DNA of 64,000 nucleotides from Polytrichum commune. Lineage: Eukaryota > Streptophyta > Polytrichopsida > Polytrichales > Polytrichaceae. The notes beneath the pieces were generated by a model, which was not told the origin of the DNA, made no database searches, and was given only the letters and a program-made list of their open reading frames with translations. The stretch spans positions 56,931,554-56,995,553 of the forward strand of contig OX485803.1 in the NCBI GenBank assembly GCA_950295325.1, written 5' to 3'. Positions 52,361 to 62,539 of the stretch are shown here, piece after piece; the first letter of the stretch is position 1, and the number at the start of each line of letters is the position of its first letter. Both the position numbers and the translations under genes were made by a program.

Positions 52361-52440
52361 ATCTATTTAACCGTTAACTTCTTGATAGGTCCATTGTGGG
52401 CTTATGAATGGGTGGAAGCATGGTAAAGTGGACCAAAAAA
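52361..52440 (+). repeat. 80-bp direct repeat, left copy (overlaps gene start)
   Basis: This is nearly identical to 54706-54784, with one substitution and one 1-bp indel in 'gcatggtaaag' versus 'gcaggtaaag'. It begins 'atctatttaaccgttaactt' and ends 'gtggaccaaaaaa'. It contains the proposed start codon ATGGGTGGAAGC of the HAD-family gene. Confidence 0.9.
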
Positions 52441-53208
52441 AGCGAGGAAGGTAGCGCGATGGTCCCCCCCATTTTACCCGTTCCACCTTTGCCGCCTAAG
52501 ACCCGGTTCCTGGTGTTAGACCTCAACGGGGTCCTCGTCCAATGCGTTCATTGCCCGAGGACCCCCACGGTGGCCTTTTGCAAACCCGAGGACGCGAATT
52601 ACGACGGGCCGCCCACGTTCATAAAGAGCAAGCTAGTTCACCTCCGCCCGTGGCTTCGGACCTTCCTCCAGATCGCCCAACAACGATGGTGGGTGGTCGT
52701 GTGGAGCTCCATGAAGGCCGAGAACACCAATGCAGTCGTGGAGTTCATCTTCAAGGGCATCGAGCCCCCCTGCATGGTCCTAGCACAGGAAGCCTGTAGA
52801 ATATTGTACACACCGGACGGCAAAGTCGTCAAAAAACCAAACAACCCCGCTTCCCCCCAATACCTCAAGGTCTTGAAGCCCATTTTTTGGGACCAGCGTC
52901 TGTCATTGATAGGTGTCCCCTACGACGTCCGTCCCACCCGGGAGAACACGCTCATGGTGGACGACAGCGCCGCAAAGAACATGTTGAACCCGACGGCCAA
53001 CTTAATAGTTTGCCCTACGTGGACGGTCGAGAAGGTCCGGGACCGATTTTTGTTAGACCTTAGTAAATACCTCCAGGCGCTCAGGGGAAGCGGACTACCT
53101 GTAAACAATTTTGTTAGGAATAATCCGATAGGCGAGAGATACTTGGATCCACGAGACCATTTGTACAGAGAGTTGTTCTCTCACGCGAAATTTAACAAGC
53201 TCATTTGA
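52408..53208 (+). CDS. FCP1/NIF-like HAD-family protein (plant type, DxN variant)
   Basis: A 266-residue frame has the fold of NLI-interacting-factor/FCP1-like HAD phosphatases. Motif I is LDLNGVLVQ (about residues 38-46; the nucleophile Asp is kept and the second Asp is Asn), then WWVVVWSSM (motif II region) and TLMVDDSAAKNM (motif IV region). In FCP1 the second Asp of DxDxT is the acid/base, so activity may be low or altered; as I recall, many plant members carry DxN too. The region is markedly GC-richer than its surroundings. The stop at 53206-53208 may be bypassed: CCT|GTAAAC at 53100 is a phase-0 donor candidate that could splice to 53352. The start is the ATG at 52408 inside the direct repeat; an ATG at 52420 is an alternative. 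Confidence 0.78.
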   Translation: MGGSMVKWTKKSEEGSAMVPPILPVPPLPPKTRFLVLDLNGVLVQCVHCPRTPTVAFCKPEDANYDGPPTFIKSKLVHLRPWLRTFLQIAQQRWWVVVWSSMKAENTNAVVEFIFKGIEPPCMVLAQEACRILYTPDGKVVKKPNNPASPQYLKVLKPIFWDQRLSLIGVPYDVRPTRENTLMVDDSAAKNMLNPTANLIVCPTWTVEKVRDRFLLDLSKYLQALRGSGLPVNNFVRNNPIGERYLDPRDHLYRELFSHAKFNKLI

Positions 53209-56605: not shown

Positions 56606-56635
56606 AACCACTACTACAAAAACATGGCTTAATGT

Positions 56636-56960
56636 CTCGGCACAATTGACTATCCATGTTTATTTAACTGAGGTAGCCCGACCTCATAGTCAGGGTGGTT
56701 TTTGTGACTGACCATAGTCCCAAATCACCCTTGGTTTTTTTGACTCAACAATCCAATCGCACTTATTGACTAAACATAGTCCACAAAGTCAGAGGAGGCA
56801 TACATTATTGGGAGCGAGCAAACTATGCATTGAATATGTTTTTTTGACTCAAGACCCAATCACACATTTAGACTAACTATGGTCTTAAAAACTTGAGGGT
56901 TCATACATTATTGGTAGCAAGCAACCTATCTATTGCATATGTTGTTTTTTTTACTCAGTA
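56636..56960. repeat. Left subterminal repeats of the CACTA element
   Basis: A duplicated block of about 120 bp ('cattattggkagcragcaa' followed by 'catatgtt' and 'ttactcag' or 'tgactcaa') sits next to several 'gactaa..atagtc' motifs in both orientations. Such arrays bind TNPA-type proteins in En/Spm. Confidence 0.6.
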
Positions 56961-57094
56961 ATTTGTATGCATGCATGGCACATGATCCTACATAAAGTTT
57001 GGGCATATCAAATACAAATTGAATTAGAAGCATGGCTATGTGCACCTTGTAATAACTACTTTGTACGTATGAGATACACAAGCCGGTATAGCAT

Positions 57095-59664
57095 TCATTC
57101 TTCATCTGAAGATGAAATTCCAAGGTAATCTGAATTGTCCTCTAAGTGTACAGGGTCATTTATGGCTCCAGGTTTTCCCCCTTTAGCAATCCATTCATCC
57201 CGCTCTGTAGCATTTTTTATAATCTCGTCTGTCAAGAGTGCTCGTGGTTTTGTCCTTTTTTCTATCTTGCCATTGAACCAGCTTTTCTTTTTTCAGTAAG
57301 GATGTGGGCGAGCGAGTAGGCGTCTATGACCGGTATAGATCATTTTCCGCATAGGTTTCGAGTACCTTGCAATTGTATTTGGCCCGCAATTTGGACAAGC
57401 CTTGTAACCCTTGGTTACACACCCTGAAACAAGACCTAGGGCTGGGAAATCATGTATGGTCCACATCAAAACAGCTCGCAACAAGAAGCGATGGTTACCA
57501 TTAATTGCAGCAACATCATATGCCCACACTCCTTGCCATAGCTGGAGAAATTCTTCAATGACAAGTGCTAAATAAACATCAAAGTTATGATCCTTAACCG
57601 CATTTTTCCCAGGATTGATGAGAGCCAACATGACGAAAAATCTTTTTGTCACAAGCCATAGAGGTAGATTATAGTTTAAAAGTACCACTGGCCATGGAGA
57701 ATGTTTCAAGTTGAAATCACCAAATGGATTCATCCCGTCTGTAGCTAGACCCAATCGTATGTTACGGGTCTCAACAGCAAAATCCGGCCACATACTGTCA
57801 ATGTGCTTCCAAGCCTTGGAATCTGCTACCGATCGCACCAAATTCTCATTTTCTGCACTTGTTTCAAGAGATCCTGTATCTTTTGGTCGATTATGTGCAT
57901 GATGTTGCATAAGCCCAGCTATGGATTTGCAACGGTACATTCGTTTAAGTCTTGGGATCAAAGGGAAGTGGCGAAGTACTTTTCGCGGGACTGTGGACGA
58001 CCCTTTCACATATCGGCTGCAATCGCACTTTAAGCATTTGTCAAGATCCTTGTGCTCCCCTCGATACAATATGCATCCATTTTCGCAAGCGTGTATAGAG
58101 TCATAGGACAATCCAAGGTTTCTTAGAATTTTTTTGGCTTCATATCTTGATTTCGGCAACAAATTGCCCGGCTCCAATATATCCTCAGAAATGAGAGTTA
58201 ATAACTCATCTACATGGCCATTCGTAGTACCATGCACTGTGCATGTATTAAGAATAAGCAACACAGCCTGTAAGAGCTTCACTTTACTCCCTGGATACAA
58301 AAGAGTGTTAGCCCACTTAAGTAATTCATCCAAATTGGGGTCCACCACAGGATCTCCTGAGTCCAATGTATGCCCATCCTCATCATTTTCCACCTCATCA
58401 GGGATGTCATCTTCGAGTGAGCTATTCCCATGGACTTCGTCATAGCGGATAAATGCTTCATTACACATGCGATGCAACTCAGTTTCAGGATCTATGCTTT
58501 CATTGAATGAACCTGTACAAGGTGCTTGAATTCGATTGTCATGACGATCCAATGTATGGGGATATTCACGATTTGACAGTGAATAAGGATCACAACCCAA
58601 TGGCGCCAACTCGGGATCCGGTCCCTGCCAAATTTTGAAATTAAATAATAAAGTGTAAAGTTCTCAAGTCAACCAAGACAAAAATAAAATGTTTTGAAAT
58701 TTATAGTAAAAAAGGGTTATTTGGTCCATTGCTAACCTCAAAGTCTCAAAAATTTACTTTATAGCATGCAAATAGTTCTTCTCCTGCTTTGATAGGCCTA
58801 GTTGACCTAGTCATTACATATCCCCATTCTTTCTTGTTCCATGATCTAGGATCCACATCATGATATTCCCAAATGACATTCTCAATCTCCTCACGCCTAT
58901 CAATAGAGCTATTGATATAGCCTGCAATATTCTCTTTTTCCACATTCCCATCAATGTAAAATATTTTTTCCGCATTCAATGCATAGCATTTTACTCTTGG
59001 AAAATAACCTTGCATCTTCTTGTATTGGTTGGTTGTGTAGCAAGGCCCCGTAAATGGAATCAATTCTTCTTCTGCTTCCAAATTTTGAAGTGTAAATAGA
59101 CCCCAACCCATGTACGGAAATGTGGATATTCTAATTTCCCATTGACGGTTCCACCATGTGAAGGGGGTCATCCGTGGGATTGGTAGAGTAGGCCATTGGC
59201 CATAGTTCTTCCCCACGTCAAAATTGACCAATTGGGTTATGGCCTTAGGCACAAATGAAGCTGACATTTCTTGCTTGGGAAAGCCTTCCATAAGGAAAGC
59301 CTTTAATGCCAAGCTCATTGATTTTTTCACTTGTGGGCGATGTTTATCCTACACCATACATAAATGCAAAACATCAAGCTTTGATGTCCATGTTATCTAC
59401 ATTATGTTGCAAACAATGAAATTGATCCAACTATCAACATTGCATGAATAAATAAAAATTCACCAGAATTGATTGTGTGAAGAATTCGTCACGCTTGAAC
59501 TTTCGGAGATGTGCTCGTATCGTCGTTCGGTTGAGCACTTGAGAACCATGACATTTGTTGCATGGACAACGATATTCATGCAGCTTAAGACGATTTGCTT
59601 GTAGTTCTTCTCTAGCACAAAGGGCAGCCTCCATGGTGTTGGGATCAAGTTTCCCTTCCACCAT
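57095..59664 (-). pseudogene. SET-Tnp2 fusion transposase (three exons, nonsense mutation)
   Basis: Proposed exons are 59664-59464, 59348-58758 and 58624-57293, joined by phase-0 GT-AG introns of 115 and 133 bp (CTG|GTGAAT, GTAG|GATAAA, TATAAA|GTAAAT, GGCAG|GGACCG). Exon 1 (67 aa) is a Cys/His transposase-associated domain (CPCNKCHGS ... IRAHLRKF). Exon 2 (197 aa) is a SET domain: GWGLFTLQNLEAEEELIPFTG, YIDGNVEKENIAGYINSS in place of the usual NHSC, NVIWE, and the terminal RPIKAGEELFACY. Exon 3 is Tnp2, the CACTA transposase (LGLATDGMNPFGD, CVTKGYKACPNCG, YTGHRRLLARPHPY), ending in TGA at 57293-57295. Reading beyond it stays open for 65 codons (KKKSWFNGKIE ...), so the TGA is probably CGA mutated. 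The remaining transposase core is missing. SET proteins methylate lysines; activity here is unproven. Confidence 0.85.
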
Positions 59665-61129
59665 GTTTGCTGTAACAATTATTAGATAATACCATAATAA
59701 TTATATTGATATATTATGCTAATATACATATTAGTATGCCACAAAATTAATTAAAACACTATTTGCCATGTAGGATATTGCAATACATAGGTCTTTGCCA
59801 TGTACACTAAGGTTAGTCAATAGGTGCTTAATTGACTACATAAGTTACAGATGTGCTTATTGTGAGTCAAAATATAACTTATTGATTACATAGGGTATTT
59901 AAAATTTGAACGTTTAAAAAAAAAGGCGGGAACATGGTTCTATGGAGGCGGGAAAGGCCAGTGAAACAAGTGGAACAAGGAATGCAAGGATGTATTGCAA
60001 GTGAAGCAAGAAATGCAAGATGTATTGCAAGTGAAGCAAGGAATGCAAGAATCGGATATAAGAATCGGATGCAAGAATTGAGGAATGCAAGAATGCAAGA
60101 ATGCAGTGAGGAACAGTAAGGGTGGACAATTGTGGGTTTCCTAGTGAGAGTTTGTAAGTGAGGGTTTGTAAGTGAGGGTTTCCTACTGAAGGTTTCTAAG
60201 TGGTAGTTTGAGGGTTTCAGACAAGGGTTTGAGTTTCAACAAGATAGCAGAAATCATCTCAAACAATAGTTTCAGAAATCATCTCAAGCAAGCAAGGATT
60301 TGAGACAAGGGTTTGAGACATCATCATAAATCATCTCAAGCAAGCAAGGGTTTGAGACAAGGGTTTGAGATCTGAAGTGGTTTGAGACAAGGGTTTGAGC
60401 AAGGGTTTGAGACAAGGTTTCTAAGTGGTAGTTCTAAGGGTTTTAGATTGTGGGTTTCAACAAGACAAACCAGAAATCATCTCAAACAAGAGTTGAACAT
60501 ACAATCAGGCAAGGCAGACAAGGGTTTGAGGACATACAATCAGACAAGGAAACATTAAGGGTGGATAGGGTTTGAGGACATACAATCAGGCAAGGCAGGC
60601 AAGGGTTTGAAGCAAGAGCAGGCAAGGGTTTGAGGCAAGAGCAGAAATCATCTCAAAGAACTTCAAGAGGCAGGCAAGGGTTTGAGGCAGAGCAGACAAG
60701 GGTTTGAGGCAAGAGCAAAAATCATTCCAAATGTGATCCACATGTGATTTTCTTTTGTTAGGTGCCATTTTTTCTCTAGGATTCTTCACTTTGCTCCTCT
60801 TTTTCCAAACGTGCAGAAGCTCCTCCTACAAATCACATACAACTGCTCAATAGATAGTTCATTCAACCACATACCACTCAAATACAGCTGCTCAATAGAT
60901 AGCTCATAGAATGGGAGGCTCTCTACATAAACCCATATACTTTTGTATACTTTGTATTCCTAGCCGTGCTAATTCATATTGATGTTTGTCTTCTAGTTTG
61001 AGAGACAGGCAGAAAGAGAATCAGCTGGGTTATTTCGAGTGTTTGAATACCAATTGCTCAAATATATTGGAAAAAAATGTTCACTTGAAACTAACATGTG
61101 ATTTGTTTGTGGATGTATGCAGTGGAAGG
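59665..61129. repeat. CACTA interior: imperfect tandem repeats, no clear gene
   Basis: At 59980-60110 short units of 'gaatgcaagatgtattgcaagtgaagcaag' type repeat. At 60120-60730 'gacaagggtttgag', 'aatcatctcaaacaa' and 'caggcaagggtttgaggc' recur many times. The stretch lies between the divergent transposase and TNP1-like pieces, so it should include the promoter region of both. Confidence 0.7.
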
Positions 61130-61411
61130 GGTGTGCAAGTGTGGATATAATGAATACGAATTTTAGTTTAGTTGCTCAAGGACAAATTGCAGGTTGTCCA
61201 TGTGACAACTACAACGGAGATGAAATTCCAGAGGGATGTTTTAGTGTTTTGGTAAACAAAGTGTAGGTACAAGATGCGAAGTTGTAATATCCAAACTTTG
61301 CGGGGAATCCTCCACAAGTACGGATGAAGGACTCTCAATTTGCACCAATTTTGTGGAGAAAAGAGGATCTGGTTCTTCTTGGTGGACTAGGGAACTCATT
61401 GTAGACTGTCA
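61130..61411 (+). pseudogene. TNP1/TNPA-like C-terminal remnant in the CACTA element
   Basis: The plus-strand reading NTNFSLVAQGQIAGCPC ... EIPEGCFSVLVNKV, a stop, VQDAKL, a stop, then PQVRMKDSQFAPILWRKEDL resembles the region of plant TNP1/En/Spm proteins that runs 'VA.G ... V.V..V...D..L ... A....WP..L'. Two in-frame stops (TAG after NKV, TAA after DAKL) mark decay. An acceptor-like 'gtatgcag' sits at 61114-61121. It is transcribed opposite to the SET-Tnp2 gene, as expected for a two-gene CACTA element. The family call is tentative. Confidence 0.5.
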
Positions 61412-61589
61412 TGACTTCATATATAGTAAAGGTCCATATACTTTTTTTGTCTACCTAGCCTCATGTTGCAAGTTTTATTGACTCTAATGGAGACTAATTT
61501 CAGTCTTATGAATGTGTTTGATTGGTTTAAAAGACACAACTTGCCATCTTTTCTTAGTCAATTTGCAAAAGAATCCAGTGCAATATGCT

Positions 61590-62227
61590 CATTTTTTACT
61601 GTAAGATGCTGTGATGTTGAAGTTCTTTGCACTCCAAGTAGACAAACGACTAGTCAATTATGCCCAACATCATATATCGTGCACAAACGATAGTCAATTA
61701 ACCATATAAGTCATGTTCTTATTGACTAATAAACCCTATCATAATATAGTCAATTACTATATACCAAGTAGTCAACAACGCCACAACAAACTATGTTTTA
61801 TTGACTAGGAGTAGTCTATTATGTCTCAGAATGTTTGTCAAGATGAATCATCACGGTAGTTTATTTGACCATCCATAGTCTACTTATGTGTGTTTTATTA
61901 ACTACCCATAGTATAATGTCTCTATGTGTTTTGACTACCCGTAGTCTAATGTACTTTGTTACTTGTGACTACATGTAGTCTAATGTACTTTGTTACTCGC
62001 GACTACATGTAGTCTAATGTATCAATGTTTTATTGACTGACTATAGTCTAATGTAAAGTTCAAAAGCATAGTCTAATGTACATACCCAGCCCATAGTCTA
62101 ATGTACACCATGTGTTTTAGACTGCGTAACATTTGACTATGCCTTATTAGACTAACCTGAAACGACTAGGAAGTCAAAAAGTATTTGAGTGTTTTGTAAA
62201 CTCAAAGTAGTCATATGTCCAGTCATA
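61590..62227. repeat. Right subterminal repeats of the CACTA element
   Basis: A dense series of 'tagtctaatgta' and 'gactac(a/c)(t/c)gtagtc' motifs occurs, about every 25-45 bp between 61880 and 62110, many forming small palindromes. Matching motifs occur at the left end. These are probable binding sites for the element's own TNPA-type protein. Confidence 0.75.
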
Positions 62228-62539
62228 TAAGCCATGTTTTTGTAGTAGTGAACGGTGGGGAACAGTGGGACAATGACTTGACCACCATAACCATCATCAA
62301 AGTCTTCCATTGTATATAGATAGTATGGAGCCATGCCATCATGCCCTTACACGTGTACTATGACACATCACTCCCTCATCTTTTTGAAATGATGGGGAAC
62401 GGTGGGGAACGGCCTCACCACACCACCATGTTGTCCATTGTATATAAGGTGGATGAGTCTTAAGTGGCTTTTTCTTAATTAGACCCCTATACATTGATTT
62501 AGTATGTGATTTAGTGAGGATCAAAGATCAAAGTGCAAC

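Follow-up and report, generated by a model that had tools for sequence, protein, structure and literature searches.

SETMAR, a single host gene of primates, encodes a SET domain and a DDE transposase of the mariner type in one protein. Two products of one element are known from En/Spm, where tnpA and tnpD are generated by alternative splicing; TnpA is not a SET protein. HarbingerS elements and the SET-bearing MuDR elements of Phytophthora encode a SET histone methyltransferase (Kojima and Jurka 2014, as cited in PMC12730594), and the same article describes transposons of fungi that bear TET/JBP, including EnSpm elements, and whose epigenetic enzyme has been proposed to permit escape from silencing.

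Here we describe elements from Polytrichum commune that resemble the CACTA (En/Spm) superfamily in their CACTA ends, 3-bp target duplication, Tnp2 transposase, Cys/His domain and subterminal repeats, but differ from this superfamily as it is known by a SET exon lying between the Cys/His exon and Tnp2. No report of SET-bearing CACTA elements was found in the open PubMed Central papers searched. HarbingerS and the SET-bearing MuDR are likewise DNA transposons with SET, although they belong to other transposase superfamilies and to oomycete hosts. The TET/JBP transposons are also DNA transposons with their own epigenetic enzyme, this being however a methylcytosine dioxygenase and the hosts being fungi. 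SETMAR shares the combination of SET with a DDE transposase but differs in being one protein of a single host gene and in its mariner origin. The likeness to tnpA and tnpD of En/Spm would lie in the two products; splice sites and phases of the elements described here are compatible with a shared first exon.

Sequences and methods

The window, i.e. the whole stretch of DNA that was analysed, comprises 64,000 nucleotides (C1:56931554-56995553) of the P. commune genome (407.8 Mb). The whole-genome search with the SET exon of the window yielded at least 151 matches, 150 of which were used. Sixty loci were fetched, one of them (L001) being the window itself and another one (L003) lying inside L009.

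The Tnp2 tree omits L001 and rows of less than 230 residues, and the SET tree omits loci without a Tnp2 match (L004, L027, L031 and L035) and rows of less than 120 residues. L003 and L009 are one element but both were kept as rows in the trees. The SET alignment (A1) consists of 22 SET exons without stops. For the comparison of the SET ends, the 37 rows carrying SET were reduced to 34 distinct copies by removing the duplicates W/L001 (the window) and L003/L009 as well as L031, which falls short of the SET end. The splice-donor matrix is approximate, which applies to all donor scores given. In detail, dN/dS was computed for 23 pairs, and three pairs with saturated or near-saturated synonymous sites were set aside; the diverged pairs were W, L010 and L012, each against L011, and L016, L017 and L018, each against L020.

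The element in the window

A scan for inverted repeats and target duplications identified a CACTA element of 5642 bp (56609-62250) holding all three domains (Table 1). Its 23-bp terminal inverted repeats are 100% complementary and start with CACTACTACAAAAA. The first-pass annotation of this DNA had considered positions 57095-59664 as the unit, which do lie inside one element but cover too little of it. Its placement of three domains on one strand is borne out by Pfam matches, all of them on the minus strand and within one element. Exon 1 matches Transpos_assoc weakly (E 9.6e-5, 22.9 bits, below the cut-off of 27.7), the SET exon matches SET (E 1.4e-9, 38.7 bits versus a cut-off of 22.4) and the Tnp2 exon matches Transposase_21 (E 8.2e-59), identifying a transposase of the CACTA type and not of the Harbinger type.

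Table 1. Features of the CACTA element, given as positions in the window
Feature	Position	Strand	Remarks
Target site duplication AAC, downstream end in gene orientation	56606..56608		Read as GTT on the minus strand, here and at the other end
Terminal inverted repeat CACTACTACAAAAACATGGCTTA	56609..56631	+	23 nt, pairing perfectly with 62228-62250
Remainder of the Tnp2 frame	57095..57292	-	Internal deletion junction (~2.1 kb compared with L010), conserved C-terminus DNSDYLGISSSDEE, stop
Tnp2 exon	57293..58624	-	Phase-0 acceptor (GGCAG/GPDPEL) to premature TGA
Intron 2 as first annotated	58625..58757	-	GT donor unconserved among lineages; overlaps the last three SET codons and the stop
SET exon	58746..59348	-	200 codons and TGA stop; most likely the terminal coding exon
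Intron 1	59349..59463	-	115 bp, GT...AG; same position and phase in lineages A-E
Exon 1, Cys/His transposase-associated domain	59464..59664	-	67 codons, phase-0 end at GT donor
Imperfect subterminal direct repeats (GACTAC..GTAGTCTAATGTA)	61863..62105		~34-bp spacing; repeat families D4 and D5
Terminal inverted repeat, other end	62228..62250	-	Partner of 56609-56631
Target site duplication AAC	62251..62253		Matches AAC at 56606..56608

A Tnp2 domain is thus present as annotated, but its frame is broken by an in-frame TGA (57295-57293) and its C-terminal half, encoded by approximately 2.1 kb in L010, is missing. L009 has the same internal deletion. Because of the premature TGA and the missing 2.1 kb the window copy, a defective deletion derivative with open Cys/His and SET exons, cannot make a full transposase as sequenced.

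Among 16 loci scanned for ends, both ends were found in two, the window element and L009, the other loci being cut by the fetched stretch. The CACTA terminal inverted repeats of both are perfect and both copies have their own 3-bp target site duplications (AAC in the window and CTT, in locus orientation, in L009), suggesting that such window-type copies were probably mobilised in trans by full relatives. The 3' ends TAGTG were found in copies of lineages A, B and C (defined below), and the inverted repeat was not reached at the 5' ends of L010, L013, L014 and L015 despite an additional 3.5-3.6 kb upstream.

In the window, the interval separating the gene from the inverted repeat contains dense imperfect AAGGGTTTGAG-type repeats (59973-60730), which may be binding sites of subterminal type or belong to a promoter.

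Distribution and phylogeny

Seventy-seven of the 150 listed SET matches are followed, 0.9-2.6 kb downstream on the same strand, by a listed Tnp2 match, and 73 of the 150 listed Tnp2 matches have an upstream SET on the same strand, while 77 have none; as 150 of 643 Tnp2 candidates were scored, these co-occurrence counts are lower bounds. No SET-Tnp2 pair in reverse order or on opposite strands was found among the listed matches within 6 kb, and the arrangement greatly exceeds what chance would produce. The remaining 73 SET matches lack a Tnp2 partner among those listed; many are fragmentary, some others nearly full-length, and partners may exist beyond the listed Tnp2 matches. From the 150 listed SET matches 87 rows were transcribed, of which 71 cover at least 190 of the 200 residues, 47 of these without a stop.

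Based on SET identity, the copies fall into lineages A (with the window; mostly 77–100%), B (about 47%), C (44–49%) and D (38–46%), and a remote SET-bearing lineage E (L022 and L023, about 32%). SET-less elements exist as well (L024, L025 and L039-L045, the absence of SET being judged on the fetched stretch). In the SET tree (31 rows), B to E were recovered as groups with A as the remainder, and the same lineages were recovered by the Tnp2 tree (39 rows, 30 SET-bearing and 9 SET-less), with weak deep branches in both. SET presence amounts to four changes on the Tnp2 tree, three of which are forced by well-supported branches. Two pairs of SET-less elements, L024/L039 and L040/L041, group with the SET-bearing lineage D in the Tnp2 tree (support 100/98) and are read here as SET losses, a direction that parsimony alone does not give.

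That a CACTA lineage acquired a SET domain, as had been proposed, is supported by this family, in which SET retains both its place and its first intron, and we consider it almost certain that these elements represent an ancient SET-bearing clade of CACTA (En/Spm) transposons. The first-pass annotation had itself named a chance nested insertion as a refuting outcome, to be indicated by family members lacking SET at this position. Such members were indeed found (9 of the 39 rows of the Tnp2 tree, four of the nine grouping with D), yet the chance insertion of a SET fragment into a single element copy is rejected by the co-occurrence in the same order and on the same strand across the family, by five lineages recurring in both the SET and the Tnp2 tree and by the purifying selection (dN/dS) described below, and its probability is vanishingly small.

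Within lineage E, L022 (C3:52943300) and L058 (C5:1790600) are 99.8% identical over at least 8.8 kb. As these copies lie on different contigs, the lineage may have moved or been duplicated recently; the identity runs to the edge of the fetched sequence, and a segmental duplication would explain it equally well.

The SET domain

Pfam SET was matched by all 22 aligned SET exons (listing threshold E <= 1, best 9.5e-12). The positions that are invariant across these sequences include MGxGL, IN, NVxWE and GE.L...Y, and G81, G83 and Y196 are invariant in 22 of 22; we take the two glycines to be the GxG motif and Y196 to be the catalytic Tyr of SET lysine methyltransferases. The residue following the invariant IN is mostly Ser instead of the usual His (NS for canonical NH), the altered position being presumably the His of the RFINHS motif. 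This His is common but not universal, as PR-type SET enzymes depart from it. Given the predominance of Ser at this position, our claim is limited to a SET domain and the methyltransferase is a putative one.

A profile search against solved structures placed MLL1/KMT2A first (E 6.7e-7) and ASH1L next. The AlphaFold2 model is modest (mean pLDDT 58, pTM 0.56, parts of the core 70–90). Foldseek matched it to MLL1 (E 6.0e-6, TM 0.41 by query) and VIA gave a Z of 10.2 (PRDM5, rmsd 3.2, 102 aligned), with numerous SET and PR domains scoring equally, so the predicted fold, as judged on this modest model, is that of a SET domain. An assignment to a subclass was rejected, as MLL1, SETD8, ASH1L, EZH2, SMYD2 and PR domains are tied, and no histone residue is therefore predicted. 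A match to the Legionella SET effector LegAS4 (NCBIfam, 3 of 4 proteins, best E 4.9e-8, 32 bits versus a cut-off of 550) was read only as shared SET ancestry, and a weak Pfam match to Ntox17 in 4 of the 22 members (best E 8e-4) was disregarded.

With respect to the source of SET, eight presumed host matches were compared out of 119 listed matches that include transposon copies. The best host-transposon score was only 38.1 bits (31% identity), indicating that there is no recent donor among the eight tested. Two short-peptide patterns from A1, which constitute weak evidence, gave 57 matches in viral contigs and 24 in prokaryotic/genome contigs, none of which was confirmed.

Selection on the SET exon

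Comparisons of diverged copies show purifying selection on the SET exon, with dN/dS values of 0.17–0.29 in the six diverged pairs (dS 0.41–0.78), the corresponding values for Tnp2 being 0.12–0.16. In closer pairs the SET values were 0.29–0.51 for B, 0.38–0.74 for C and 0.26–1.29 for D; L022-L023 gave 1.05, resting on five changes. Window-type pairs show no SET constraint (W-L009 1.25, L009-L007 0.97 and W-L007 3.79, the last with one synonymous change), and over all comparisons of window-type copies or of the window with L010 the range of 0.91–3.79 reflects few changes and no clear constraint. Constraint in diverged pairs together with its lack in window-type copies suggests that the SET domain looks to be kept along mobile lineages and to decay in defective copies.

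Exon junctions and predicted products

The annotated first junction, from the Cys/His exon to SET in phase 0 (59463-59349), is present and recurs in all five lineages. The phase-0 donor of exon 1 (GTGAGT, GTAAGT, GTATGC and similar) has approximate scores of 6.3–8.8 in 15 of the 15 SET-bearing A-D loci scored, and a phase-0 acceptor precedes SET in A, B, C and D (mutated in L003/L009). In lineage E, a phase-0 donor (GAG/GTCAGT) and an acceptor (TTGCAG/) can join the Cys/His frame to SET. A search with the joined peptide revealed no intronless Cys/His-SET copy, none of the 150 matches listed crossing the joint into both exons free of stops.

The second junction is less straightforward. Two phase-0 GT...AG intervals (59463-59349 and 58757-58625) and a SET exon open up to its donor had been reported, implying one three-domain protein in which the SET exon would be a symmetric phase-0 cassette (Cys/His-SET-Tnp2). 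Both intervals do exist in phase 0 and the frame does reach the second donor, but it ends in TGA (58748-58746) three codons later and the donor is unconserved. In detail, the site reads GTA AAT TTT TGA in A copies (slightly different in L005 and L012), GTG AAT TAA in C copies (GTG AAA TGA in L035), TTG AAC CCG ... TAG in B copies, CTA/TTA AAC/AAT TGA in D copies, TTG AAT TGA in L027 and TTT GCA AAA TAA in E. A GT is found in 20 of the 34 distinct copies, namely 11 of A, with approximate scores of 3.4–5.7, and 9 of C, with approximate scores of -1.5 to 1.9; no GT is present in 14 (five B, six D, L027 and two E), and all 34 have their own stop 2–7 codons past the site.

The SET ends themselves come just after the invariant Tyr plus one codon and read, each followed by the stop, VNF (A), VN (C), LNPHT(T/A)L (B), LN (D) and FAK (E), with the variants VKF, VKFLRL and VK. 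Most A-D copies retain Val or Leu followed by Asn, encoded by differing codons. If the SET end were an intron, p for five lineages reaching a stop so early would be about 0.001 if independent, a figure which is no strict test, given the shortness of the V/L-N ends and the common ancestry of the lineages.

A fusion is compatible with lineage A, to which the window belongs: GT...AG and phase fit, the frame is kept and the window donor, with an approximate score of 5.7, is acceptable, so that a three-domain protein is possible there. Further GTs exist in the last 90 nt of SET. A phase-0 GT 30 nt upstream is found in most C copies, L003/L009 and L029 (approximate scores 5.1–5.6, 5.3 in most C copies), and its use would keep the Tnp2 frame, with loss of the last ten SET codons and the invariant Tyr. 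In B and D the stronger GTs, 64 nt upstream (approximate scores 5.7–9.8), are in phase 2 and would break the frame. As a family trait the fusion is rejected at the proposed site for B, D and E, where it is impossible without a GT. The low C scores and the own SET stops in all copies also speak against it, and it would split the Cys/His domain, which in L025, L043 and L044, all SET-less, runs unbroken into Tnp2. We therefore regard one three-domain protein as an unlikely product, while the SET exon is probably a terminal exon, as judged from its conserved end.

In L025, L043 and L044 the Cys/His domain and Tnp2 form one exon with the joint ..WRGPG.RDSS.., which resembles the SIL/GPDPEL that exon 1 joined to Tnp2 with SET skipped would give. 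A phase-0 acceptor lies before Tnp2 in the A, B and C loci shown, is less clear in L034 and D and is mutated in L008. In lineage A (W, L010 and L011) the Tnp2 frame starts at this acceptor with no ATG before the conserved HRMC stretch, suggesting that it most likely needs an upstream exon, and exon 1 fits in phase. This argues against a separate promoter between SET and Tnp2 that would make them independently transcribed genes of the element, an arrangement which the gaps of 0.1–1.6 kb and the separate SET stop would accommodate but which we consider very improbable.

The unconserved second junction, the own stops in 34 of 34 copies and the SET-skipping joint resembling that of L025, L043 and L044 favour two products of one gene, a reading to which we assign a probability of roughly 0.5; splice forms, activity, targeting and purpose are all predicted from the sequences. 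The gene would open with an exon for a Cys/His domain of DNA-binding type, the conserved phase-0 donor of which would be spliced in one of two ways: either to the SET exon with its own stop, giving a small Cys/His-SET protein of approximately 265 aa, or past SET to the Tnp2 exons, giving an ordinary Cys/His-Tnp2 transposase. The Cys/His-SET protein would then be a lysine methyltransferase brought to the element ends by the same Cys/His domain that guides the transposase, and its most likely use would be to modify chromatin at element copies, acting against silencing or opening ends and targets. That the methyltransferase is active and modifies the chromatin of the element itself is a tentative suggestion.

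The same exon layout would also fit a SET exon that is a regulatory terminal exon, diverting transcripts and thereby limiting transposase output, with a SET protein that has no enzymatic role, and the replacement of the canonical NH mostly by NS makes activity uncertain. The purifying selection and the invariant core over 22 sequences argue instead for a working protein, which makes a purely regulatory exon quite unlikely.

Combining these parts, we cautiously propose an old major CACTA clade in which one gene with alternative terminal exons might encode both the transposase and a self-guided lysine methyltransferase, directed at histones (or the transposase), that could counter silencing or choose sites. 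If this is true, the CACTA clade supplies itself with a methyltransferase of histone type that is maintained by selection, providing a natural, testable system for a transposon that writes chromatin marks on its own copies. Harbinger and MuDR would then be joined by CACTA in having acquired SET genes, a hint that selection has favoured chromatin enzymes on transposons more than once.

Additional observations

L031 (C3:18190300-18194900) is a deletion derivative in which the SET frame and the C-terminal Tnp2 exon form a single long frame (336 aa, one stop). In the window, an open frame of 266 aa with an LDLNGVL motif is located on the plus strand at 52408-53208, and from this motif, recognised by eye, we take it to resemble a phosphatase of the FCP1/SCP type. 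The elements of lineage B (L046+L013 and L047+L014) are longer than 12.6 kb and contain, upstream of the gene, several open frames of 150–190 aa on both strands, among which there may be another gene of the element.
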